This document shows positions 4,501 to 64,000 of a DNA stretch of 64,000 bases, one piece after another. Under the pieces are notes generated by a model that saw only the letters and a program-made list of their open reading frames with translations, was not told the origin of the DNA and searched no databases. This DNA is from Trichosporon coremiiforme (taxonomy: Eukaryota; Basidiomycota; Tremellomycetes; Trichosporonales; Trichosporonaceae): assembly GCA_039545355.1 (NCBI GenBank), contig BCJJ01000014.1, forward strand, positions 995,914 to 1,059,913, read 5' to 3'. The position numbers were made by a program, and so were the translations under genes. How positions within the stretch are numbered: the stretch's first letter is position 1; the number at the start of each line of letters is the position of its first letter.

Positions 4501-6705
4501 TTATGACGGACAGAAGTCGAGCTGGCTGAGAATGAGGGGCCACACTGGGAGTTAGCTTTGCGGCATACGGTTAACTCACCCTCCTCGAAGCCGACGTGCT
4601 TGCCGCCGCGGATCTGCTTCCAGATATTCTGCATTGTGTCCGACTTCTTGATCTCGCCCCAGTGCTGCAGGAAGAAGGCGACTTGCACCTGCACTCGTCA
4701 GTTTCGGGCGGTCTGTCATGAAACTCACCTTGCGGACGTCGTCAAAGGTCGAGCTGAAACGCGAGAAGACCTCGGCAGGGATGTTCAGGGATGTGAGCTG
4801 GGAGCAGATGTGCTGGAATGCGCGCATCTTGAGCGCCGGCAGATCCAGCTTGTCCGCGAGGCGGTACACGGACTTGGCGCTCACGGGGCGCGGCCCGGTC
4901 GCACCTTCGCCCTCGCGCATGCCCCTCTCCAAAAGCCACTGCGCGATCCACTCGCGCCGCGACCGCGGTTCCTGTTCAGGCGTCACCTCGGTGCCACTAT
5001 ACACCACTGTACGCCTCGTGCCGTCCCCAAACGACGACGATAGTGGCGCAAAGTAGATAGTGTCGGTGTAGAGCTGGCGTCAGCTGTCAATCTCTGGAAG
5101 TAGCTCACCCAGTACAGGATCGCCCACCACGTGCTCCACGCGGCGTCCTTCACCACAACTCGCGTTTTCTTCGGTCCGATGACGGCGGCCTCGTCACGCT
5201 CGCGCATACGCTTGCGGGATATACGGCGCACTGGCATGCGCGGGGCAGCCTCATGGCTCTCCTCGGCCATGTCGTCGTCGCCCTCAGCCATGCTCTGCGA
5301 CCTCGTCTCCATGTCCTCATCGCTGAGCACGCTGTCGGCGCTGCCGAGACCGTGCTCGCTCTCGATTTCGGGAGGGTTTACCGGAGGCACACCCTCGGCA
5401 AAGTGAATGTCCGGCTGGATCCTCGGACTCATGTCCACTGGTGGCTCGTCCCGCGTCGTCGTCGAAGAGAACAGCGAGTTCACGTTGTTCATCGCCTCGT
5501 CCTCGACGTCCGAGTCTGACAACGTGTCCAGCAGGTCGTCCAGGTCGTCCTGATGTCAGTTCCAGCACTTCAAGAAAGAAACTCACGGTCAGCTCCATTC
5601 CGTCCCCTCCCTCCCCGAAACCCCCGTGAAACATGGCGTCAAAGTACTCGCAGCGGTTCAGGAGCTTCTTGTTCGCATAGACGCGGCGGGGTGGGGCGCG
5701 CTCCAGCCCTGAAGGCGAGGGTCTCGAAGGAATCACAAACTCGATGTCAGAGTACACTGCTGTCAGCTTGCAACACAGGCTCGCTAGCTTACATGGGTCA
5801 TCGAACATATCACCGACAGCAGAGACAAGATCACGGGGTACGATGCGTTTCGGCCCGCCAGAGGCGCCCGTATCGATGACTGCCTCAGACGACGTGCTGC
5901 CGCTCTGTCGCGGCGGCGCCATGCCGAGGCGGTAGCCGAGGGGAGGGAGGGACTGGCCCGAGATGGTGCACACGATGGTGAAGGTGTCGTTCGCGACCAC
6001 GCTAGGGTGCAGGAACAGGTGGTCGCGCTTGACGAACTGCTGCCAGCCCCAGTTGGCTGTTTTGACCGCAAACGTGTGGTCCGACGCCTCCTTGTAGCAC
6101 AGCGTCTGCATCTTGTTCGTCCGCTCGTCCATCACCTTCACATCGAAGCGGAACAGCCACAGCCCCTTGCGTGTCCACTTGCCGTTGATGCCCTGTTCGC
6201 GCTCCTGTTGCGACGGCTGAGTGTGAGTTATGCACACCATGTAGCAACTCACGACACACGACAAGTACAGGCTCGCGAACTCGCCGCCCTGCACGCCCGA
6301 GTTCGGGTACCACAGCACCTCCCAGAGGTTCTCCGTATCGCCAAATACGACAGACTTGATGCATTTGCTGGTAGCCGTTAGTTCAAGCTCCCCAAGTAAC
6401 GAAGGTGCAGGGGAGGTTCGCCGATCGGACTATCGGCTGGCAGCGATCGAGATGCCAGCACGACAGCGGCTCACTTGTGGAGCAGCTGAACTCACCTTTT
6501 CGCGCTACCCTTGCTCGTCTCGTACATCTGTCGCAGTCCCGTCAGGCGCCATTCGAGAGACACTGTCGACGTCTCGGAGAACTCAGTCGAAGACGCCGAC
6601 GCGCCGGACGCCAGAAGTCCCGGCGGGACTGCTGTCAGTTCCACTTGCTGTCAGCAGAAGCTTACCAGTAATGTCGCGCTGAGTGTTGGACGCGCTCGTC
6701 GCCAT
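4501..6705 (-). CDS. MATH and BTB/POZ domain protein
   Basis: Nine exons (6666-6705, 6496-6628, 6253-6367, 5793-6216, 5587-5756, 5109-5549, 4729-5073, 4580-4688, 4501-4544) join in phase into a 606-aa protein. Introns are 35-40 nt except one of 128 nt. The N-terminal third reads as a MATH/TRAF-like domain (WEVLWYPNS, GEFASLYLSC, GLWLFRFDVKVMD, WGWQQFVKRDHLF). It is followed by a BTB start (YSDIEFVIP, then VYANKKLLNRCEYFDAMF), interrupted by an acidic, Ser-rich insert with an RRISRKRMRERDE basic patch that could be a nuclear signal. The BTB core resumes in the C-terminal exons (KSVYRLADKLDLPALKMRAF). In animals and fission yeast this architecture marks Cullin-3 substrate adaptors. A similar adaptor role is an inference here. 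The start ATG is the first in a 40-nt exon whose phase fits. Confidence 0.85.
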
Positions 6706-32105: not shown

Positions 32106-33225
32106 ATGAGACGTCTCCTCGGTCTCCTCTTCCTCTTGCTTGCGCCATTGCTGGCGCTCGCCGCCGGCGACACCTACCTGCTCGGTGTCGGCCGCGGCGA
32201 CATCACAGGTACAGCCGTCGAGGTGCCGTTCATGGGTTACGCAAGTGAGTGCCGCCCGCACATTCCGCGCTAACACCAGTGTTCGAGCAGAAGGGCACGG
32301 GACTGAAGCAGCGCCTGTACTCGCGCGTGTTCATCATGGGCTCGACGACGAACCCGGACGACAGGCTCGTGTACGTCATCCTCGACACGGGCATGGGCGA
32401 CACGGCCGTCAGGAAGGGTATCGTCGAGGCACTGGCTGGCGACGGCGAGCTCAAGATGTACAAGGACAAGCACGTTGCGATCATTGGCACGCACTCGCAC
32501 TCTGGTCCTGGCGGATACAGCAACTACCTGCTGCACCAGGCGAGTGTGCTCGGCTTCCACAGGGAGAACTACCAGGCGATCGTGGACGGGACGCTCAAGG
32601 CGATCCGCGACGCACATAGCAGCCTGTCAGAGGGCACGCTCACCGTCGGCTCAGCACACGTCAAGGACGCGAACATCAACCGTTCTCTCTGGGCGTACCT
32701 CCAGAACCCCAAGGAGGAGCGGGACAAGTACAAGGACCAGGGCGACTCGACCGACACACTCATGACGCTCCTCCGCCTCACGAAGAAGGACGGCACGCAC
32801 ATTGGCGCGTTGAACTGGTACGCGACGCACGGCACCAGCGCGCACAACAACAACACGCTCGTGACCGGCGACAACAAGGGCGTCGCCGCCTGGCTCATGG
32901 AGCAGGAGCACGGAGGTTCCTTCGTCGCCGGTTTCTCGCAGGCCAATGTCGGTGACGTCTCTCCCAACACACTGGGTCAGTGGTGCGAGGACGGCTCAAA
33001 CACGCAGTGTGACCTGGAGAAGGGCACGTGCTCGGACGGTACGGTCGTCAAGTGCCAAGCCCGCGGCCCCCTCTTCACGGTCAAGGACAACGGCCTGTCG
33101 TCCTGCTACGAAATCGGCAAGAGGCAGTACGCCACCGCAGCCGAAATCATGAACTCGCTCGACAGCTCGGGCACCCCCATTTCGGGCCCCGTCCGCTCCT
33201 TCCACACGATGCAGGACATGCGGTA

Positions 33226-34982
33226 AACTAGGGTCACAGGTTAAGTCGAACGGATGCGCACGGTCCCGTCATCGTCAACCTCGCCGTGGCTCATGTTCTG
33301 ATCCATAACTCATGCAACGGTACTCTTTATGCCTAGAAACTCCGCGTAGAGCCGAAAGGAATGCTTGGCAGCTCGGACAAATGGAGCTGCAGAGCGCACC
33401 GTGCATACTGGCCACCACACCACCACAATAAAGCTGCATGTCACCACCCTCCTTATCGCCCTAGATCTCAGCCACCGAGGCCTGTGCTTGCCCCAAATCT
33501 TTCATGTATCAAGCTCCGAAGCTGGGCTTTTGGAAAATCCAAGAATTGAGTCGAAACCATGCATATCGGCAGCGGAGTCCGTCCGACTGTCCATCTTTGT
33601 GGCATATAAGCCTCCTTGAGTGCCACTTCTCTTCCACAACAGCTCTACCTCATCAGAACTTGCAGCTATGCCTCGCCCTTGCCTCACACCTCGCCGCCGC
33701 GCCAAGATTGCGTCCTTGGCTCGCTACCGCAGCTATTCCTCTGTCGCCTGGGAGTACAACGTCGCCAAGAGCACTGTGGGTTACTGTGTGATGTTAGCTC
33801 GCCTCCAGGCTCTCATTCCACCTGCTCTGGCTGTTCTGAACCCTGTCCAGGGGATCCGCATCCCCCGCAGCCACACCAAGCTCACTCCCGACAACCTCAG
33901 AGCGATCTACGAGGTCTTTGAGGCTCAGCCCTTCGCCAGCAATCGTGAGGTGTTGGACACTCTTGCAGACAGAGACATTGTCCTCTCTCTCATGACTCTG
34001 CGCCGTGCACGTCGCCAGCTTGGTTATGGCCGCTTTGTGGCTCTTGTGCGGCCGTATCTAAGCCCCCTTCACAAGGAGAAGCGTCTCGCTTATGCTCTTG
34101 AGCAGCAGCGACTCTTCCAAGAGTGGAGGAAGGTGATCTTCTGTGACGAGGTCCCTCTCTACATTGACCAGCTCCACAGAGCATATGTGACGCGCCCCAT
34201 CGGTTCTGACCGTGCCAATGAGCGGTGAGTGTCTTTCCTGACGTTCTACATGCTGTGGAAGAGTGCTGACACTCAGGTACATCCAGTACACCTCCAGATC
34301 GAGCTGTGGGTCGATTATGTGCTGGGGGGCTATCTGGTATGGCGGCAAGTCGAAGCTGGTGTGGTTTGACACCTCCCAGTCGACCTCCAAGCGCAAGGGA
34401 GTCAATGCGGCCATCTATCGCACCCAGGTGACTGAGAAGGAGTTGTTTGATTGCTGGAAGCGTGTCAAGACTCAGTGGCGTGGTTATGGCTTGCCCTGGG
34501 TTGTAGAGGACAACGCTGTCGTCCACACAGCCAAGGCCACCCGTGGCAAGGCAGAGCAACTTGGCATGCGCTTCCTGCCTCACCCTCCCTGCTCTCCTTG
34601 CCTCAACCCCATTGAGAACCTTTGGAGCAACCTCAAGCGCCGCCTGGCCCGTCTCAACCCTCGTCCCACCACCCAGGAGGGGCTATTCGCTGCCGCTACG
34701 GAGCTCTGGAACACCTATGATCAGAATGAGATCGACCGACTTATCATGTCCATGCCTAACAGGATCAAGGACACCATCTCTGCTAATGGAGGACACATTA
34801 AGTATTGATCCCAGGTGCACCATGCTTCGTATATAGGTTACCAAGACTCCCATGCACGTGGAACAACTGTTTATAGAGCAAGAAACATGCATATGCATGA
34901 GTTATTCGTGGTTGCAGCGAGGTCGACAGTTCACGGCCTCGTTTGTGGCACCACTCGTTCGACTTAACCTGTGACCCTAGTT
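33226..34982 (+). mobile_element. Complete Tc1/mariner-family DNA transposon
   Basis: The 1,757-bp element is bounded by a TA duplication (33224-33225 and 34983-34984). Its terminal inverted repeats are identical for 27 bases (AACTAGGGTCACAGGTTAAG at the left, its complement at the right), 29 bases if the TA is counted. It carries one transposase gene reading rightward and about 440 bp of 5' and 170 bp of 3' non-coding sequence. Perfect repeats, intact transposase and an otherwise clean target gene suggest a recent, possibly still active insertion. Confidence 0.95.
33668..34808 (+). CDS. Tc1/mariner transposase (DD34E)
   Basis: Exon 1 (33668-34224) and exon 2 (34277-34808) join over a 52-nt intron (branch GCTGAC, acceptor CTCAG) to 362 aa. 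An earlier in-frame ATG at 33620 would add 16 residues. The N-terminal part has a helix-turn-helix pattern (LTPRRRAKIASLARYRS, VAKSTVGYCVMLAR). The catalytic triad is visible: Asp in KVIFCDEV, Asp in WVVEDNAVVHTA, and Glu in NPIENLW, with exactly 34 residues between the second and third, the Tc1 spacing. The frame is undamaged. It inserted in the same orientation as the ceramidase gene, and its intron resembles the host's introns. Confidence 0.93.
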
Positions 34983-36023
34983 TACTTCTCCTTCCCGCAC
35001 CCCAAGACCGGTCAGGCGGTCGAGACCTGTCCCTCCGCCCTTGGCTTCTCCTTTGGCGCGGGCACGGCCGACGGCCCGGGCATCTCCGACTTCAAGCAGG
35101 CCGCTACGAATGGCAAGCCGCGGAACCCGTTCTGGTCCCTCGTCTCTCTGATCCTGAAGACGCCCTCAGACAGGCAGAAGAAGTGCCACGGCGCCAAGCC
35201 GATTCTCGTGGATATCGGCGAGATGGACTTCCCCTACGCCTGGGGCCCGAACCATGTCGACGTGCAGATGATGCGGATCGGGCAGCTGATCATGATCATT
35301 GCGCCGGCCGAGGCGACGACGATGGCGGGACGCCGGTGGCGGAACGCAGTCGCTGAAGCTGCTGGAACTGTTCTGGGGCAGCAGGAGCCGATTGTGGTCC
35401 TCGCCGGCCCGAGTAATGGATACACGTCCTATGTCACGACCGAGGAGGAGTACGGCGTGCAGCGGTACGAGGGCGCGTCGACGCTCTTTGGCCCGCACAC
35501 GCTCAACGCGCACATCAACCTCACAGTCTCCCGCGTGGGGTATCTCCGTGAAGGCAGCCCCGACGCCGACCCCGGCCCGCTCGTCCCCGACACGCGCGGC
35601 AAGGCCATGACCCTGTTGACAAAGGTGGTGTACGACAACCCGCCGATCGGCAAGTCCTTCGGGCAGTGCATCGCCCAGCCCCCCGCCACTGTCTCCAAAG
35701 GAGGCCTCGTCTCGGCAACGTACGTCGGCGCCAACCCGCGCAACAACTTCCGTCTCGAGGGCACCTACGCCGCGGTCGAGAAGAAGAATGGAGATGCTTG
35801 GCAGCAAGTCCGCTCAGATCGCGACTGGCACCTGACCTACGCCTGGAAGCGGACTAACGGTCTCACGGGGTACAGCGAGGTGACCATCTCCTGGCAGACT
35901 GGGGACGACGACAGGACAGAGCCGGGCACGTACAGGCTGAAATACTATGGCGACAGCAAGGCGCCGGTGACGGGCAAGATTAGCGCGTTTGAGGGCACGA
36001 GTAACGAGTTTGTTGTGCAGTAG

Positions 36024-36468: not shown

Positions 36469-39291
36469 AGAGGAGGTAAGTTACTTGATCCAGGTATCGC
36501 TGTAACTGACGCGAGTCAATACAGACGCAGTTGTGAGCTGTACTCCTTCATAGCCTTAGCTGATGACAGAGAACCAACCTGGGTCGTTGAAAAACTGCGA
36601 AGTGAACCCGGGGCACTGGAGCTGGTTACCAGGTGCGGACGCGTGGAAGTCTCCGCAGACGGAATCGGTCTCGTCGTCCTTAACTCGAAGACGGTAAGTT
36701 AGCCCTATCGGAGCACGTAACTGACTCCAGCCTGTCGTCGTGACCAGGCTGCCGGGGGGTGACTGGTAATCTGTGGTCTGTGAGGTGTAGCTGACGACAG
36801 GCTGGCCGGGGTTTGGTGTGAGCTACTCCGGTTGTGGTGAGCTGATGATCAGACACTGGAGGCTTTGCAGACAAGCTCTCCCAGACTGGACGGGTAAGTT
36901 GCCCGCTGTCCGTAGCGACTGACTCCAGGGGGTCAATATGCCTACTGTACCTATGGCTCGTGAGCTGTCGTGCCTGTTTCTAAGCTGATAACGGTCAGCA
37001 GAGCCTGGGCTAGATGTGAGCGACCTCGCGATGGATGAGCTGACGACCAGGCGGCAGACTCTGCGACTGCCACTCCTCGTGACCGATGGAGATGGGTAAG
37101 TTGCTTGGTGGATCCAATGTCACTGAAATCAGTGGTGGGATACCGCCTGTGCTCGACTCGTGAGCTATATCCTTTCCGCCTAGCTGATGACAGGCGGCAA
37201 GGCTTGGCGCAAGCTGTCTCAGCGACTCATAGCTGATGACCACATCGAACGATACGCTCACAGCCGACAACACCGCTCTTTATTATCGGGATGGAAGGTA
37301 GAGTTGTTAACTCCCTCGCGCCAACTGACCCCAGATGATGAAGACACAAGGTCAGGATCGATGTGATTCGTAAGCTGCTTGGCTCCCCAAACAGAGCTGA
37401 TGACAGGCGACAGGACTAGGGTGTGACTCGGCACGGACATGAGAGCCGACTTCGAAGTACGCCAAAGAAGGCAGTGGTGAGCTCGTAGTTCCGTGATGAA
37501 GAGCTAACGACCAGTCTGTAGACTCGAGCGCGCGTGATCTACACCGTCGGAGGTACAGTAGCTAACGTCAAGCAACTATCCGTTACGGTACCAGCGATGA
37601 GCGAGTGAGGGGTAAGCTATACAGCTCCTTGTGCGGTAAAGCTGGCAATCAGTACGACACAACGAAGGCGTAAGTTGTAGGGGCTGGCGCAAGCTAACTC
37701 GTCCCAGAATCCGCATATACCCTCACGGTGAGACCCCTGCTGGCCGCAAACAGGGCCTGCAGTGGCTCATACGCCGGCAGAAGCTCGGTGAGCTGTCCAG
37801 GCTTTGTTACCAGCTGACATGACAGTCCTGGCACCAGTGTCAAACAGTGTCTGAGAGGAGGTGAGCTGCGCACCTGCTTCCAAACTGATAGCAGGATCGA
37901 TAAGGGCGCGAGAGGCGGGGTGAGCCACCGCCACCAACCGAAGAATGCCTGGGCTTCGAGCGAGACACCAACTGTGAGCTTTCCCACTCTGTCCGAGATG
38001 ACACCCCAGGCTCTTCGGTGAGCTTTGCACGTACTGGTAGCAGCTGACACGGCAGCTATAACAGCAGTACCCAAAGAGGTGAGCTAACGCAGCGATCCCC
38101 CAGCTCATTCCAAAAATGGTGCGCCGGTGCATGCTGGCAGGCGAATCACTGTTACCAGTCGAGCAGCCCAAGAAGGCCAGATCACCATGATCTGTAAAAG
38201 TTTCGCACAGGTTGCAGTAACTGACGTCGCAGGCTACTTCAGTGAGCTGCTCTCGCCTTATTATCCAGCTAGCGAAACAGTCCCGTCGCGGTGTGCAGAG
38301 CCGTGGTCTTCTAAGGTGAGCTAAGCCTGCTATTCCCCAGCTGATGACAGATAGTAGATTCGCACCCGTTCAGCGTCAGTGAGTTGCCGTGAGCTTTCAA
38401 GTAGCTGACAGCAGTCACTCGCCGTGTCGCAAAGGCGCGGGGATGAGCTGTTGGTCTGCCTGGGTGCAGCGGACTCCAAGCCCCGAAGCTGCATACTGTA
38501 GGTGAGCCAGCATGTAGCTTACCTCAGCTGATACCAGATTCCCCGTACTTCCCAATGCTTCTCACAGCGACGTTGACCGGGCCAGAAACTCGGTGTGCAG
38601 ATATACTCCGCACCCAATTCAGAAGTGAGCGAGCTGTTTACTTCAGGCGTTGTAGCTGATGACAGCCCAGCCACCCTCATTATCCCAACATCGCCAAGTG
38701 GGATATCTCCGGTCAGTTGACTAGATTGCAGCAAGAGCTGACGTCCAGTCCAGTTTTCGGGTCCGGCTGCTCAGTCTTGGCATGGCAGTGACTTCCATTG
38801 AGGGTACGAGTCGGTGAGTTGTACTTAGCGTCGACTGAACTGACTCCATTGAAGGCATACGTGGCGGGAATCCATTAGGCGGCCTGGGTGAGCTCCGCGA
38901 CTGTCACTACCTAGCTGATAACAGTCGTCATGGTCCATCCTACTTACAAAGCAGGTTAACACGCTCTTGGGCGATGATAACTAACTAACGAAAGCCTGCT
39001 CGCTCATCATGCTGTCATTCAGTGCAGTCAGTTAGACCAGCTCTCCCAGTAACTGATCCCAGCTCGGCACAAGACGTCACTCAGCAAACCGCCGATACGA
39101 AAAGCGTCGATGACCCAACGCTCACCATCAACATGCTCCCCACGAAGTGCGTGTTTTGAGCCGAACAGGAAAGAGTTGACCTCAGGCCAGATCTAACGCG
39201 GCAGAAGTTGGCGTTGCAATGAAGACGACTTCTGTTAATTGTGGCCAGCGCAGGTAAGCTTGTCTGAGCCCGATAGCTTAAGCTGACAAAG
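36469..39291 (+). repeat. Intron-like array B with 200-nt higher-order period (plus-strand polarity)
   Basis: The array is made of units GTGAGCT (or GTAAGTT) ... AGCTGAnnACAG (or ACTGACTCCAG) of 34-41 nt. GTAAGTT-type donors stand at 36694, 36894, 37096 and 37298 (GTAGAGTT in the last), that is 200, 202 and 202 nt apart. Within each period a second donor lies at +64 to +72 and a third at +113 to +124. The short segment after the second unit is similar in all four periods (GCGGCAAGGCTTGGC type). Clean later units include 37788-37825, 37861-37894, 38316-38350 and 38888-38924. Others are decayed (for example 37209-37243 with GC and CAC ends). The last recognisable unit is near 39252-39291. The piece at 36569-36693 is open in a well-composed frame (EPTWVVEKLRSEPG), so part may have been coding. 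Confidence 0.75.
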
Positions 39292-42552: not shown

Positions 42553-44030
42553 ATGGTCGACGTTCTCGACGTAAAGTACGACCCCGAGGCGGCTATCAAT
42601 GAGGAGGAGATCAAGAAGTGCGACATCTCCCACAAGGAGACCGCCTCGGTCGCCCCTTACATCTATGTTCCCAACACGCCCGAGGAGGCCAAGCTCATTC
42701 GCAAGATCGACGCGCATCTTTTTCCCATGCTCTGGCTCATGTTCCTCATGAACTACCTCGACCGCACGAACATAGGAGTGAGTGATCAGCAATTGTGGCG
42801 GTAAAAATTCAGTGCTGACGTCAGAACGCCAAGGTCGGCGGCATGGAGAAGGACCTCAAGCTTTCGTCCTCTGACTACTCTCTCGTTCTTTCGATTTTCT
42901 TCGTTGGTTACCTGCTCTGGGAGGTGCCTTCCAACATGATGCTCACGCGCTCGACTCCGCGTATTTTCATTCCGACCCTCATGCTCGTCTGGGGTGCCAT
43001 TTCCATCGCTGTCGTTGGCGTCCACAACCTTGGCGGCATGGTCGCTTTCCGCTTCGTCCTCGGTCTCGTTGAGGCTGGTTTCTTCCCCGGTATCATGCTC
43101 GTCATCTCCTGCTGGTACAAGCCCCAGGAGATGGCCAAGCGTGTCGCGATTCTCTACTCTTCGACCATGATGGCCGGTGCCTTCGGTGGTCTTCTCGCCG
43201 GTGGTATCATTGAGGGTCTCGAGGGCGTTCGTGGCATTCGCGGCTGGCGCTGGCTCTTCATCATTGAAGGTATCATGACCTGTCTCATCGCCCTCGCCGC
43301 CTACTTTGTCCTCCCCAACTACCCTCAGACCACCAAGTGGCTCTCTGTCGACGAGAAGCGCCTCGCCCTCGCCCGTCTTCTCGCTGCCGACTCGGACGTT
43401 GACGTTGACGCCGAGGTCGAGCACATGGGCCACTGGGACGCCTTCAAGCTCGCCGTCAAGGACCCCAAGACCTGGGTCTTCCTCGTCATCTACAACTGTC
43501 TTTCGTCGGTCGGCACCATTTCTTACTTCTTCCCCTCGCTCCTCGAGACCATGGGCTACTCTGGCCGTACCCTCCAGTTCATGACCGTCCCCATCTACGC
43601 CGTCTCCATGTTTGTCGGCTGCTCTGCTGGTTTCTTCGCCGACCGTACCGGCATGAAGGCCTACACCATCTGTGGCGGTGCCGTTCTCTCCGTCATTTCT
43701 TTCATTATCTGTGTCACCGTCAACGAGCCCAAGGTCCGTTACGCCTTCATCTGCTTCGGTGCCGCCGGTATCTGGACCAACATTCCCATCTTCCTGTCCT
43801 GGATGGCTACCATGTTCGACGGCAAGGAGAAGCGCGCCATCTCCATCGCCCTCGTCAACGGCTTCGGTAACCTTGCCTCCGTCTACGGATCGTTCTTCTG
43901 GCCCAAGAGCAGCGCTCCGCAGTTCGTGCCTGGCTTTGCCGTTACGACCGCCCTTTGCGGATTCGGAGGCATCATCTGTGCGCTCGCGAAGTGGAAGTAC
44001 GGCGACAAGGGTGTCGAGCGTACTTCGTAA
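42553..44030 (+). CDS. MFS transporter, anion:cation symporter (Dal5/Tna1-like)
   Basis: Exon 1 (42553-42777) and exon 2 (42825-44030) join over a 47-nt intron to 476 aa. About twelve hydrophobic segments are visible. The first membrane segment ends LMFLMNYLDRTNIGNAKV, the signature of the anion:cation symporter family. Other family marks are VGYLLWEVPSNMML, GLVEAGFFPGI and GWRWLFIIEGI. Known members import allantoate, nicotinate, pantothenate or other organic anions with protons at the plasma membrane. The substrate here is not determined. The TATA box suggests inducible expression. Confidence 0.92.
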
Positions 44031-44296
44031 GGAGAAGGAACGATTACGTGACGATTTTCGAGAGGGGTTCTTTGGTTGATAGAAGGAAAAGGATAGGCGC
44101 CTGCTATGGCTGCCACTGTGTATTCCGTATAACATTTAACACATAACACGTCTGATGAACAACAATACTGCATTGAGAGCTGGAGCAGAGGACGCCACAC
44201 TGACAGCAGGAGTTAGAGCGACTAGTCGGTCGATCGACGGGGATTTAATCGCAGTTTATCTGTCCAATACGGCCCGCCTCGCGCCTGGCTTGGCAT

Positions 44297-44373
44297 CACG
44301 ACCGCCTTTGCGGATTCGGAGGCATCATCTGTGCGCTCGCAAAGTGGAAGTACGGCGACAGGGGTGTCGAGAA
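44297..44373 (+). pseudogene. Fragment duplicated from the MFS gene 3' end
   Basis: About 75 bp copies the coding sequence near 43937-44020 (GGATTCGGAGGCATCATCTG and the following KWKYGDKGVE codons) with four or five differences. It lies about 270 bp after the stop codon and probably is the remnant of a tandem duplicate. Confidence 0.8.
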
Positions 44374-59691: not shown

Positions 59692-61978
59692 ATGCAGACC
59701 GCCTACGTATCAATAGGCGCCAACCGTTCAAGCTCTTGCTGTGCGTCCTCATCGGCTGGCATCTTTGCTTACGGTGCCGGCTCAACCGTCGCCCTTTGGG
59801 ACACTGTGAGTGACCTTCCTCTACCTCCACCTCCCCTTCAGCTGCCCAGTGTGCGAACAACTAATGTCAGACGAGGGACGGGGGTGTCTTCGCTACTCTC
59901 CTCGGACACAAGGGGCATGTCACGACAGTCAAGCTCCTCCGTGACGGTGACGTGACGGTGTTTGTGTCCGGCGACAACGTCGGCGAGGTGCGCGTATGGG
60001 AGGGCTCCGGTCGAAGCGTAAGTTCACTGAAAGTTTAGGGGCCATGATTGTAAGTTAACCCCAGTTCAAATGCACAGCAGCCTTCAAAGCTCATAAGGGC
60101 AGCGTGTCCGCTCTCGGCGTCTTCCCCGGAGGCAAGGAGCTCATGACCGGCGGAAGTGACGCCGTGCTGAAGCGGTGGACGCTGTCTTCCTCGCCAGAGG
60201 CCGTTGCCACTCTCGACCTGAAGGGTAAGCTCCCGCTCGACATCGAGCTCGCCCTCCTTCCCAACTCTGACGAGCCGCTGCTCGTCGTCGGCTGCACCGA
60301 CCGGAAAGTGCAGGTCTGGGTGCCGTCCGAGAACACCTTCCGACGAGCGGTCATGCTCGAAGGACACGAGGACTGGGTCCGCTGCCTCGCCTTCACGACG
60401 ACTGGATCCGATCTGCTCCTAGCCTCAGGCTCCCAGGACAACTACGTCCGCCTCTGGCGTATCGGACTCGGACGAGAGGTCGACCCGCTCGCGGAGCCCG
60501 ACGCAGAGGAGACCGCCGAGGTCTCGACGAAGGCGCATCCATTCGTTGTCGCTGGCGTGCGATACGCGATCACGCTCGAAGCGCTGTTGGTCGGCCACGA
60601 GGGCGGGCTTACGAATGTGCACTTCTCGGGCGACACGGCGCTCCTCTCGACCGCAGCCGACAACTCGATGATCATTTGGGAGCCGACAGACCAGTCAGGG
60701 CAGAAGGACGGCATGTGGATCCCGGCGCACCGTTTTGGCGCCTTCGGCGGCCGTGGGCTCAGCTTCTTCGGTGCCGTGTGGGCACCGAATTCGGTCATCG
60801 CGACCGGATGGACGGGAGGTGTCGAGCGCTGGCGCCGTAGCGCGGGAAGATGGGAGCCGACACCGGGTGTTACGGGGCATTTTGACGCTGCCCGGAGTGT
60901 CGCCTGGGACCCGTCAGGCGACTACGTGCTCAGCACGAGTGCGGACCAGACGTCGCGTGTCCACGCCGCTGCGACCTCGACCGGTTCGCCGGTGTGGGGT
61001 GAGATCGCCCGTCCGCAGGTGCATGGCTACGACCTCGTCGATGGCGGGTTCCTGACGCCATTCCGCATTGCCACTGCCGCAGAGGAGAAGACGGTGCGCG
61101 TCTTCGAGGCGACTGAGGGCTTCGCCCAATCCCTCTCTTCGCTCGGCATTGCCACCCCTTCCGCCGAGGTCATCGAAAGCCTGCCGAAGGGCGCGACAGT
61201 GCCGCCGCTGGGTCTTTCGAACCGTGCTCTCGGAAAGGCGTACGACGAGCCAGAGATTAAGACGAGCCACGAGGCGCAGCACAGTGTTGCTGCCACCCTT
61301 GCTGCGCTGCCGACCGAGGAGGAGCTGGGCACGAGCACGCTCTGGCCCGAGATCGAGAAGATCTACGGACACGGTTACGAGCTGGTGACCCTTTCGGCCT
61401 CGCACGGAGGTGACATCATTGCGACTGCCTCGCGCGCTAGTTCAGCCGAACACGCCGCCGTGCGCCTCACCTCGACGAAGGACTGGAGCCACCTCGCCAC
61501 GCTCCCCGGCCACACTCTCACCGTTACCCGCATCGCGTGGAATCCGAACGACCAGCGCGTGCTGACCGTCTCCCGCGACCGTGGGTGGCGCCTGTACGAG
61601 AACGACAATGGAGAATGGAAGCAGGTCGCGGGCGAGGAGAAAGCCCATGCGCGCATGGTGCTCGACTGCGCCTTTGTTGACGACGAGATGTTCGTGACCG
61701 CCTCGCGCGACAAGACGGTCAAGGTGTGGAAGAACTCCACGTGCGTCGTCACGATCAAGCTCGAGTCGCCTGCGACTGCTGTCGCTGCTGGACCGATGCT
61801 GGCGATTGGTACGGAGAACGGAGCGATTGAGCTGTACGACCTCCAGGGCGAGCTGAAGGGCTCTCTGCCCGAGGAGCAGAGGCATGCTGGTCCCGTGGTG
61901 AGGCTCGCCTGGTCGAAGGGTGGTAAGCTGGCTAGCGCGAGCGAGGACAGGAGTGTGCGCGTGTTTGAGCTGGCATAG
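59692..61978 (+). CDS. ELP2: Elongator complex subunit 2, WD40 protein
   Basis: Exons 59692-59805, 59871-60017 and 60065-61978 join in phase 0 (introns 65 and 47 nt) to 724 aa. Repeated WD40 blades run through the whole protein (LLGHKGHVTTVKLL, AHKGSVSALGVFPGG, LEGHEDWVRCLAF, GHFDAARSVAWDPSGDYVLS, GHTLTVTRIAWNPNDQRVL, DKTVKVW), forming the two propellers of Elp2. The segment GEIARPQVHGYDL and the linker VPPLGLSNRALG are characteristic of this subunit. Elp2 supports the Elp1/Elp3 core in modifying wobble uridines of tRNAs. The gene converges with array C only about 75 bp beyond its stop. Confidence 0.95.
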
Positions 61979-62051: not shown

Positions 62052-63758
62052 CTGAGATTAGCTATCAGCCAGTAACAAGAAGCTCACGACTGGCCCGGGG
62101 TTAGCTCCGATACCAGCAGCCAGCTTACAATGACATCTCGAGGCTGCAGTCAACTGAAAATCTGTCGAAAAAGCTCACACTGAATCAGCTAATGCTGCTC
62201 AACTCCCAAGCTCACAATGCTGGAATCAGCTACCGAGCATCTCGAGATGAGCTCACTGTTGACTGCAGTCAGCTCGAACAAGGGGGGAAAGCTCACAGAT
62301 GTCTTCGGGACTGGGATCAGCTTCTGCCACTCGTGGGAACAGCTCACTAGGTGCAGCTGTTCGGTCTGGGATCAGCTTGTGTTATGACCACAGAGCTCAC
62401 TGGTACCTGGAGTTAGCTAGTGTACTGGAACACAGCTGTACTTAGAGCCTGGTATCATCTCCGCACAACGAGCGACGAGCTCATTTCCTGAAGCCGTAGA
62501 GTCTGAGATCAGCTACTGGAGCCGAGAAGAACCTGACCTTTATCTAGAGCCAGCTCGAGCGCCTGGGTTGTACAGCTCACAGAAGTCTGCGGGTCTGGGG
62601 TTAGATGTACGTCATGCAGGAGATCACTGCCTTCAGCCGCTCGACTTTCCAGCGGCAGAAGAGCCTGAGTTCAGCTTGAGGGGAACGTTGCCTGGGACGC
62701 TCACCTTGGTAAGGTCCACTGAGGCGTGCGCACCTGGGGTTAGCTAGGTGGCAGGGAACCTCAAGCTCACATTCCGAAGTCTCACAAGTCTGGAGTCAGC
62801 TCTTGGGAGACAGTGAGGAGCTCACCCTGCATCTGGAGTCAGATGTCTAGCGGAAGGAAAGCAGCTCACGGAACTGGCTGTCAGCTTCAGAGAGGCTACA
62901 GAAGGAAGCTGGCCATTAAGTCTGAGGCTGGTGTCAGCTGCACTATTCAGGTCTGGGGTCAGCTGCAGGCAAATGTACAAAGCTTACCCATGCAGCACCT
63001 GGAGTTAGCTCTCGAGAATCACCTAGCTCACATGAATGACTGCGGTCAGCTCTGACTGAGTGATGTACAACTCACTTGTTTCGGCCGCTGTATTGGTCAG
63101 CGCACACTGCGATTAGCTTCAGGGCGCTCGCTACTGGAAGCTCACTCCAAGGGGAGGGGGGGACGGGGCAGTCTGGAGGTCAGCTCCCAAAACTGCTGCA
63201 ACAGCTCACGCCGAGTCTGGAGTCAGCTCGCAGGGACGTATATACAGTAGCTCACCCATCACACCTGGGGCCAGCTTTTTCAGGGTGGTCATAGCTCACT
63301 AGCAGTTCAGACTCTCAGTGAAAGCGCACTGCGATCAGCTCATGAGTTCGCCAGCTTGGAAGCGCACACCAAAGCACGTGAGGTCTGAGATCAACTCGAT
63401 TTCCTCAACTTAGCTCATCCCACGGGGAGTTGCCTGGGTTCAGCTGGTTGGGAAGCTTTCCAAACCTCACTTTGCCACTTCGCAGAGGGGCAGCTAATAC
63501 AGCTTCCTGAGCTGCTCACTTTAATCCTGAAGTCAGTTTTGCGCCGTTATGGAAACTCACAAGTCTTGGATCAGCTGTCGCCACACTCGCAAAAGCTATC
63601 GCGTAGAGCCTTTTGGCATTCCGTTCACAGATTCATTCGAGCCCTGTGGCAGCGCACAGCTGACCTGCTCGAGAGTCTCTGCCAGCCCATTCAGTCGCTA
63701 CAGCGCGGCAGAAGTCAGACTGAAGATCAGCTTCGCTTCAGCACCCGCGATAGCTTAC
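62052..63758 (-). repeat. Intron-like array C with apparent micro-exons (minus-strand polarity)
   Basis: About 33 units read on the minus strand as GTGAGCT...AGCTGAnnnCAG, 33-40 nt each. They include 62052-62087, 62144-62178, 62180-62215, 62220-62256, 62263-62296, 62311-62347, 62366-62400, 62734-62770, 62790-62825, 62953-62987, 63173-63209, 63265-63299, 63434-63470 and 63527-63560. The segments between successive units are tiny: 1 nt at 62179, 4 nt at 62216-62219, 6 nt at 62257-62262, 14 and 18 nt next, 6 nt at 62401-62406. Some units have mutated donors (AT in place of GT at 62483 and 63418, GA at 63600). The tetramer AGCT occurs 34 times in 62030-62990 by my count, where about four are expected. 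Confidence 0.75.
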
Positions 63759-64000
63759 TGTACGAGAGCAACGCAGGTCGCTGTCTGGGCATTTGCTACT
63801 CTTCGAAACGGCTAAGCCCATGAGAAGATCGTAACGGAGAAGCGATGGACTGGGGGTCGAAGAGAGGTGGTCGTGCGAGGTCTAGCTCTCTCTCCGGCGC
63901 AAGCGCTCTGTTGTTCCGTCATAGCCGGCACATATTTGCGTCACGGTTTCGGCCTGCTCCATTCGTGCCGTCTGGAATTAGCTACGTGGGGATCATTGCA
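63759..64000. other. 5' flank of array C, cut by the window end
   Basis: If array C is transcribed leftward, its start lies here or beyond the window. One more GTCAGCT-like pair is not evident. Nothing else is recognised. Confidence 0.35.

Follow-up and report, generated by a model that had tools for sequence, protein, structure and literature searches.

Very short introns with complementary donor and branch sites, and their arrays, in Trichosporon coremiiforme

Complementarity of donor and branch site

In introns of about 33-40 nt in this genome, the donor, GTRAGYT, is complementary at six of seven positions to the arm that holds the branch site, ARCTRAY. The seventh position is a fixed purine-purine mismatch that both splice signals require, and the micro-introns carry terminal inverted repeats of 7 nt with one mismatch. 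This donor-branch complementarity, which we call the clamp, is a stronger finding than the array layout in which many of these introns occur, including a closely packed run (array C) in the window, the 64,000-nt stretch of DNA that was analysed (C14:995,914-1,059,913, from an assembly of 42 Mb in 134 contigs). A search of the open-licence literature found no description of donor-branch covariation in short introns or of micro-intron arrays in fungi.

Pattern matches across the genome number 1798 for GTGAGCT..AGCTGAC and 1260 for GTGAGTT..AACTGAC, the two paired classes, against 395 for GTGAGTT..AGCTGAC (wobble) and 103 for GTGAGCT..AACTGAC (mismatch); reversed-pattern controls for the four classes gave 4, 0, 0 and 0 matches. 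Over these 3,556 matches the odds ratio for covariation of donor and branch is 55.7. Wobble matches outnumber mismatches, which is what pairing in RNA would lead one to expect; yet U1 prefers T at +6, and this preference, not wobble pairing, may be what makes the T6 wobble class so large. Coupling falls off with length: among the matches listed (the first 100 per class) introns of up to 40 nt have an odds ratio of about 90, and longer ones of about 4. Both variable pairs are formed in 79% of 150 array and 79% of 77 non-array introns of 35-38 nt, compared with 22% (n=27) and 11% (n=57), respectively, at 43-60 nt. Array units have C at +6 in 86% and T at +7 in 91% of cases, the figures for coding introns irrespective of length (n=45) being 33% and 58%; this gap exists because intron length differs, and the idea that array donors are distinct from gene donors was dropped. 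The match between array units and gene introns asserted in an earlier note on this DNA therefore holds for the short class only, since coding introns of all lengths differ at +6 and +7.

Covariation is also seen in introns chosen by GTRAG, CTRAY and YAG only, the non-array ones being pattern matches rather than verified genes. For non-array introns (n=200) z is 4.1 at the donor +6 pair and 2.9 at the +7 pair, and for array introns (n=257) it is 2.7 and 2.5, while the +8 to +10 pairs show no excess in either set; when the register was slid as a control, most cells were near zero, with two at z 2.6 and 2.7. Among 505 array units, changes at both partners exceeded expectation for pair 4 (11 vs 4.1), pair 6 (17 vs 5.5) and, to a smaller degree, pair 7 (6 vs 3.2), with no such excess for pairs 1, 2 and 5; the largest ratios in non-partner cells were 5 vs 2.0 and 8 vs 4.7. 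In one array (L023, 600-2900) all seven clamp introns found are non-standard, with GGCT/AGCC in five and CGCT/AGCG and AGTC/GACT in the others. We also noted that the clamp arms at 1457-2757 of this locus are mostly GTAGGCT/AGCCRAC, and that at L019 3280-4940 an intron whose branch arm, AGCTCA(C/T), is a full complement of the donor recurs in a module estimated very roughly at 175 nt. Inverted repeats of the clamp type number 319 inside arrays against 104-145 after shuffling. Outside introns they show no excess (322 vs 320-355 shuffled), and mutational palindrome correction was rejected as a source of the clamp on this ground. Shuffling the bodies of 250 units made no difference to their RNA folding energy (-7.5 for the real units, -7.4 for the shuffled ones).

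Array C and its relatives in the genome

Introns were called with a strict model, which requires a GT donor, a branch A and an AG acceptor, and a soft model, which tolerates a lost GT or AG. An attempt to train the intron model by EM with nothing fixed was abandoned, since it converged on a strand-symmetric motif and called 2,518 'introns'. In the model used, GT, branch A and AG were imposed as hard constraints and training stopped after one round; it called 678 introns in real and 35 in shuffled sequence (penalty 10, about 230 kb, both strands); a second round, in which shuffled matches rose to as many as 183, was left unused.

Array C is confirmed as a real array of intron-like units. On the minus strand of 62,052-63,758 the strict model finds 24 GT-AG introns; in 200 dinucleotide shuffles the count averaged 1.66 and never exceeded 6, and on the plus strand it was 1. 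The units show U2-type signals (GT donor, branch CTRAY, YAG acceptor, fitting spacing) above chance. The dense run of minimal introns described in the earlier note is thus upheld, as are its separations of as little as 1, 2, 4 and 6 nt, gaps of 1, 2, 4, 6, 7 and 8 nt all being present among the strict calls. Its apparent exons of 1-30 nt account for 15 of the 23 gaps, but the other eight measure 31-159 nt; its position for the array stands, except that the strand is minus and the array runs on beyond the window. The continuation toward the upstream end of the array occupies 63,759-64,000 within the window and extends outside it to about 65,720 (locus L004), with three more strict introns in 63,759-64,300 and 11 in 64,530-65,720. 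Between 62,040 and 64,300 the soft model finds 36 units and the strict model 27, so that about a quarter are degenerate. Introns make up 0.57 of array C, within a range of 0.35-0.62 across arrays.

All strict introns of array C are 33-40 nt long apart from one call of 78 nt (62,503-62,580), which is possibly two merged units. The standard clamp, AGCT at donor +4 to +7 with AGCT in the branch arm, is found at 62,052-62,087; at 62,090-62,128, where the near acceptor is CGG, the next AG lies 5 nt on and the gap to the next intron is 2 nt; at 62,180-62,215, 62,220-62,256, 62,263-62,296, 62,311-62,347, 62,366-62,400, 62,734-62,770, 62,790-62,825, 62,953-62,987, 62,999-63,031, 63,107-63,145, 63,173-63,209 and 63,217-63,255; and at 63,720-63,758, the upstream edge of the interval. 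Departures from it affect either arm. The branch arm is AGTT at 62,144-62,178, an intron preceded by a 1-nt exon at 62,179, and ATCT at 62,833-62,869; the donor is GTGAGCG at 62,665-62,704, GTGCGCT at 63,329-63,367 and GTGAGGT at 63,434-63,470; GTGAGTT stands with AGCTGAC, a wobble combination, at 63,040-63,075; and the intron at 62,595-62,627 has no clamp. A second dialect, GTGAGTT/AACTGAC, in which a C-G pair is replaced by T-A, occurs at 63,527-63,560.

The layout of array C, which according to the earlier note is that of no known fungal gene class, is not unique. The acceptor-gap-donor pattern AGCTGAN{2,6}CAGN{0,30}GTGAGCT is matched 319 times in the genome and its reversed form 8 times, and the forward matches listed are visibly bunched; a donor-intron-exon-donor pattern occurs 45 times against 0 for the control. 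We sampled 18 loci with clustered or recurring matches and then some of their homeologs, obtaining 22 array stretches (34.7 kb in total) that hold 505 soft-model units, the longest run having 44; the loci were chosen for density, and these counts are therefore no estimate of frequency in the genome. One of the arrays, sparser than array C, lies in the window on the plus strand at 36,690-38,960, with 30 soft or 23 strict introns.

At 17 signal positions, the 505 units carry from none to five mismatches in 155, 156, 113, 59, 20 and 2 cases, respectively. Preferential retention of GT, branch A and AG was not seen in array units; these letters are lost as often as those of the clamp. A count of array units with at most one mismatch gives 155 perfect units and 167 with one. 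These single mismatches number 12 at G1, 14 at T2, 9 at A0, 8 at A-2 and 10 at G-1, together 53 of 167 at five of the 17 positions, and 5-17 at each non-essential position. In the rest of the 88.8-kb stretch outside arrays there are 15 perfect units and 20 with one mismatch, which falls at an essential position in 12 of the 20.

Neighbouring genes, homeologous arrays and coding potential

Array C fills the space between a gene for a 394-aa coiled-coil protein on the same strand, whose stop is 165 nt from the first array intron, and a convergent ELP2-like WD40 gene (main ORF 60,104-61,978, plus strand), which ends 73 nt from the last. The closest named matches of the ELP2-like protein are from Cutaneotrichosporon (58%) and Vanrija (57%), and one further protein is 94% identical. 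For 11 of 19 merged arrays an upstream gene is in reach, one of them about 3.5 kb off, beyond a transposon-like insert, and in 11 of 11 cases it is on the strand of the array with the array downstream; the neighbour on the other side is convergent in eight, on the same strand in three and out of reach in eight. These 19 include two homeologous pairs that are not independent (array C/L027 and L018/L038).

Second copies were present for all five array loci followed (those of the window, L007, L013, L017 and L018) and for the pair L020/L021, mostly with 75-90% DNA identity in the flanks, and on this basis the genome looks like a Trichosporonales-like allodiploid. Hybrid genomes are on record for Trichosporon in the accessible part of one report (PMC6642101). 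In both array C and its homeolog on C20 (L027) a gene is followed by array, a tRNA-like gene, more array and then ELP2, and the flanking gene is 85% identical. Within the array itself blastn aligned a single 122-bp piece at 70% (window about 62,208-62,326), and the part of the array after the tRNA-like gene measures about 2.2 kb here and about 450 bp in the homeolog. The tRNA-like gene resembles tRNA-Glu and contains an intron; it was spotted by eye on the strand opposite to the array, just past the end of the window (L004 about 5184-5304) and in the homeolog (L027 about 4850-4975), and is kept at 84% over 226 bp; Rfam and ARAGORN reported nothing in L004 and L027, this sequence included.

The last seven units of array C (62,052-62,347, minus strand) can be matched in order, on exon length, with the seven that end the homeologous array, the exons measuring 14/15, 6/6, 4/4, 1/7, 15/15 and 7/7 nt. 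In these units the signal letters are identical at 105 of 119 positions, the intron bodies at 62 of 122 (62.2 expected from shuffles) and the exons at 31 of 54 (26.3 shuffled); the near AG has been lost on one side in three units and GT in one. Orthology of the units rests on exon lengths together with the 122-bp match. Among 231 array pairs, strict calls give the longest shared run, of four exons, in this pair (18, 14, 6, 4 against 18, 15, 6, 4), the next longest being three; soft calls with one miss tolerated give five in two unrelated pairs as well, and exon lengths alone are thus no proof of orthology.

Elsewhere, an inversion has split the homeolog of the L018 array with its breakpoint at the array; both halves (L038 3030-5150 and L039 2860-4080) are still arrays, and the half that was moved is once more preceded by a gene on its own strand. 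The homeolog of L017 (L040) is without the array, which shows that an array is dispensable. Old internal duplications are present in L013, L009, L019 and ext+73830. In L013, where the module has a period of about 172 nt, exons of the same class are more alike than others (0.588 vs 0.472, P<0.0005, a difference inflated by similar lengths), intron bodies are barely class-specific (0.579 vs 0.563, P 0.044), and the signals show no class difference, staying near consensus while bodies are nearly unrelated. Likeness of exons between module copies is clear in L013 and was not general over all arrays. DNA searches of four whole loci revealed no readable copied introns elsewhere, their sensitivity for 36-nt matches being unproven. 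Two kinds of repeat were seen in passing. A repeat of about 95 bp at L017 3923-4020 and 4316-4414 is dispersed, with at least 25 other occurrences of 88% identity or higher, and a 95-bp direct repeat lies in the window at 43,924-44,018 and 44,279-44,371 (92% identical). An element of about 1.76 kb with 30-bp terminal inverted repeats, 100% identical between 33,223-34,985 of the window and L010 3641-5401, where it sits between two clusters of micro-introns, looks like a recently active DNA transposon.

Of three options raised earlier for array C, a hyper-intronised protein gene finds no backing in reading frames. With the predicted introns of array C removed, the longest run without a stop codon spans 70 codons of 1,175 nt (shuffle P 0.97), and across 22 spliced arrays such runs are no longer than in exon-order shuffles (mean P 0.46). 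This test is weak, three almost fully open positive-control genes giving only P 0.14-0.23, and for this reason we rely more on the open fraction itself, which in a DMC1-like control is 287 codons in 907 nt. The homeologs align over no more than the one 122-bp piece. The matched micro-exons sum to 47 nt on one side and 54 nt on the other, a difference that is no multiple of three, and the three-exon modules of L013 sum to 59, 61, 63, 64, 59 and 68 nt, not multiples of three throughout. An intron-derived satellite, the second option, has against it that TRF found no tandem array at 62-64 kb, and in its favour the old tandem multi-exon modules of some other arrays. A putative non-coding, intron-bearing transcript fits best of the three, no coding signal having been found; the role in loading spliceosomes that the earlier note suggested for it is conjectural. 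In the DMC1-like gene (Rad51 domain; L007, minus strand, with 13 predicted introns, and L008 3366-4812), judged by eye, micro-exons run past the recognisable 3' coding end, alike in both homeologs, and the intron bodies have diverged.

Explanations for the arrays and their meaning

We propose, with confidence that we would put at an even balance, that array C is a non-coding 3' tail saturated with very short introns, either the 3' UTR or read-through of the upstream gene or a lncRNA just behind it. The array would be transcribed, and splicing would remove about half of the tail. Pairing between donor and branch might clamp the two together within one molecule, keeping the 5' splice site at the branch site and fixing the geometry of the signals in introns too short for loose assembly, before U1/U6 and U2 invade it. 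Selection could then act on the total number of working introns, weak and shared, with a single intron counting for little, and would produce a similarly low rate of loss at all 17 signal positions as well as turnover of array length and sequence under a lasting architecture. If every letter of the clamp is needed, each loss would cost the same, and little in a redundant tail, giving an even spectrum of mismatches. The gain may lie in a long 3' tail being largely removed, or in a cumulative effect of introns on RNA level, as in Cryptococcus. The failure of GT, branch A and AG to be better kept speaks against this proposal, being not the usual sign of selection on splice sites. The AG or GT lost on one side in four of the seven matched units and the L017 homeolog that has no array count against it too. 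It is also possible that a full complement of donor and branch could hide the 5' splice site and branch from U1 and U2 and so inhibit splicing. A bolder version, which we advance only tentatively and hold to be considerably less probable, is that these introns form a lineage-specific minimal class whose 5' splice site must pair with its own branch site, recognition being partly self-contained, and that the arrays are non-coding RNAs that exist to be spliced repeatedly.

The serious rival is a neutral intron graveyard, in which micro-introns are gained frequently, non-coding 3' tails accumulate them as they decay, and the array has no function. Mismatches spread over all 17 positions, GT, branch A and AG included, and counts per unit that tail off smoothly are what it predicts, and it accounts for the even spectrum more simply; homeologous arrays that differ in size and hardly align, with one absent altogether, also agree with it. 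However, introns copied in this way should leave look-alikes, and among 22 arrays the only two matches of at least 40 bits between arrays are both from the homeologous pair C14/C20. Furthermore, neutral decay predicts something other than the apparent persistence of signals beside saturated bodies in the last seven units of array C and in L013, and it leaves the same ends on unrelated bodies unexplained. The comparison of those seven units brought the 3'-tail proposal up slightly to its even standing and lowered the graveyard by a similar step, to a level at which we consider it unlikely.

Less probable again, and doubtful on present evidence, is that dense and partly broken introns stall spliceosomes and feed small RNAs, or titrate splicing factors. 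In Cryptococcus, stalled spliceosomes are said to trigger RNAi. Units without G1 (8% of the 505) or T2 (9%) would yield stalled substrates, and matches to RNA-dependent RNA polymerase on five contigs (C11:942298, C23:759237, C1:206510, C3:1426080 and C32:30674) suggest that RNAi machinery may be present, but 311 of the 505 units have no or one mismatch and look competent, and the arrays lack any tie to transposons. A satellite whose tandem repeat unit happens to contain intron signals, with no need for transcription, is a shade less probable still. It would account for the multi-unit duplications noted above and for matches of at least 35 bits being almost as numerous within arrays (11) as between them (12) in 5.7% of the search space; on the other side, whole-unit head-to-tail copies are absent at array C, bodies share almost nothing while splice signals appear to persist, orientation to the upstream gene is fixed, and donor-branch coupling extends genome-wide and to non-array introns. 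A micro-exon protein gene, effector- or MEG-like, is disfavoured and very improbable given the lack of a frame signal and the barely conserved exons, even though the DMC1-like gene has many short introns and trailing micro-exons, array C and its homeolog agree in the lengths of their last exons, and gene prediction is able to string reading frames together across arrays.

Schistosome micro-exon genes share with the arrays runs of very short exons; their exons are multiples of three and encode protein, whereas no coding signal is found here. Closer in mechanism are the stwintrons and sister introns of Xylariales, fungal spliceosomal introns in which, as far as the consulted parts of two reports go, the 5' end with the donor is complementary to a 3' element (the near-terminal inverted repeats NTIRE-10), with compensatory changes and an interior said to be irrelevant (PMC12403724, PMC8469720), and without flanking duplications (PMC8469720). 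In those excerpts the 3' arm lies between branch and acceptor of sequence-similar, propagating introns, whereas here the branch site itself serves as that arm, which thousands of introns have in common; their bodies are unrelated, and some stand side by side in arrays. Introners likewise supply many stereotyped introns to one genome, some families with terminal inverted repeats in the portions available (PMC9860276, PMC4457414), but we detected no sequence family and no target-site duplication: flanks of array introns showed no consistent excess of identity, two positions exceeding |z| of 2 with opposite signs. In related Cryptococcus, where the average intron is 65 nt, the accessible text reports introns in UTRs and miscRNAs and rapid turnover of those in 3' UTRs, and does not describe arrays or donor-branch coupling (PMC5851062, PMC3744415, PMC5006051); introns there raise expression cumulatively, according to one partial source (PMC3744415). 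Pairing inside the intron is shared with Giardia, Spironucleus and Trichomonas, where, in the sections seen, it is thought to set the spacing of splice signals to about 35-45 nt (PMC6679479, PMC12316389). There, to judge from those sections, long introns fold by internal stems to mimic short ones; here short introns pair donor with branch, and pairing drops above 40 nt.

The two core signals of an intron are read by different snRNAs and are usually treated as independent. In this genome the letters of one go with those of the other (odds ratio 56), chiefly where the intron does not exceed 40 nt. This makes it possible to ask how introns of minimal length are handled by the spliceosome, and whether it is aided or impeded by structure in the pre-mRNA at the active signals. 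The arrays offer natural runs in which intact and broken copies lie side by side, with at least one compensated dialect that is specific to an array.
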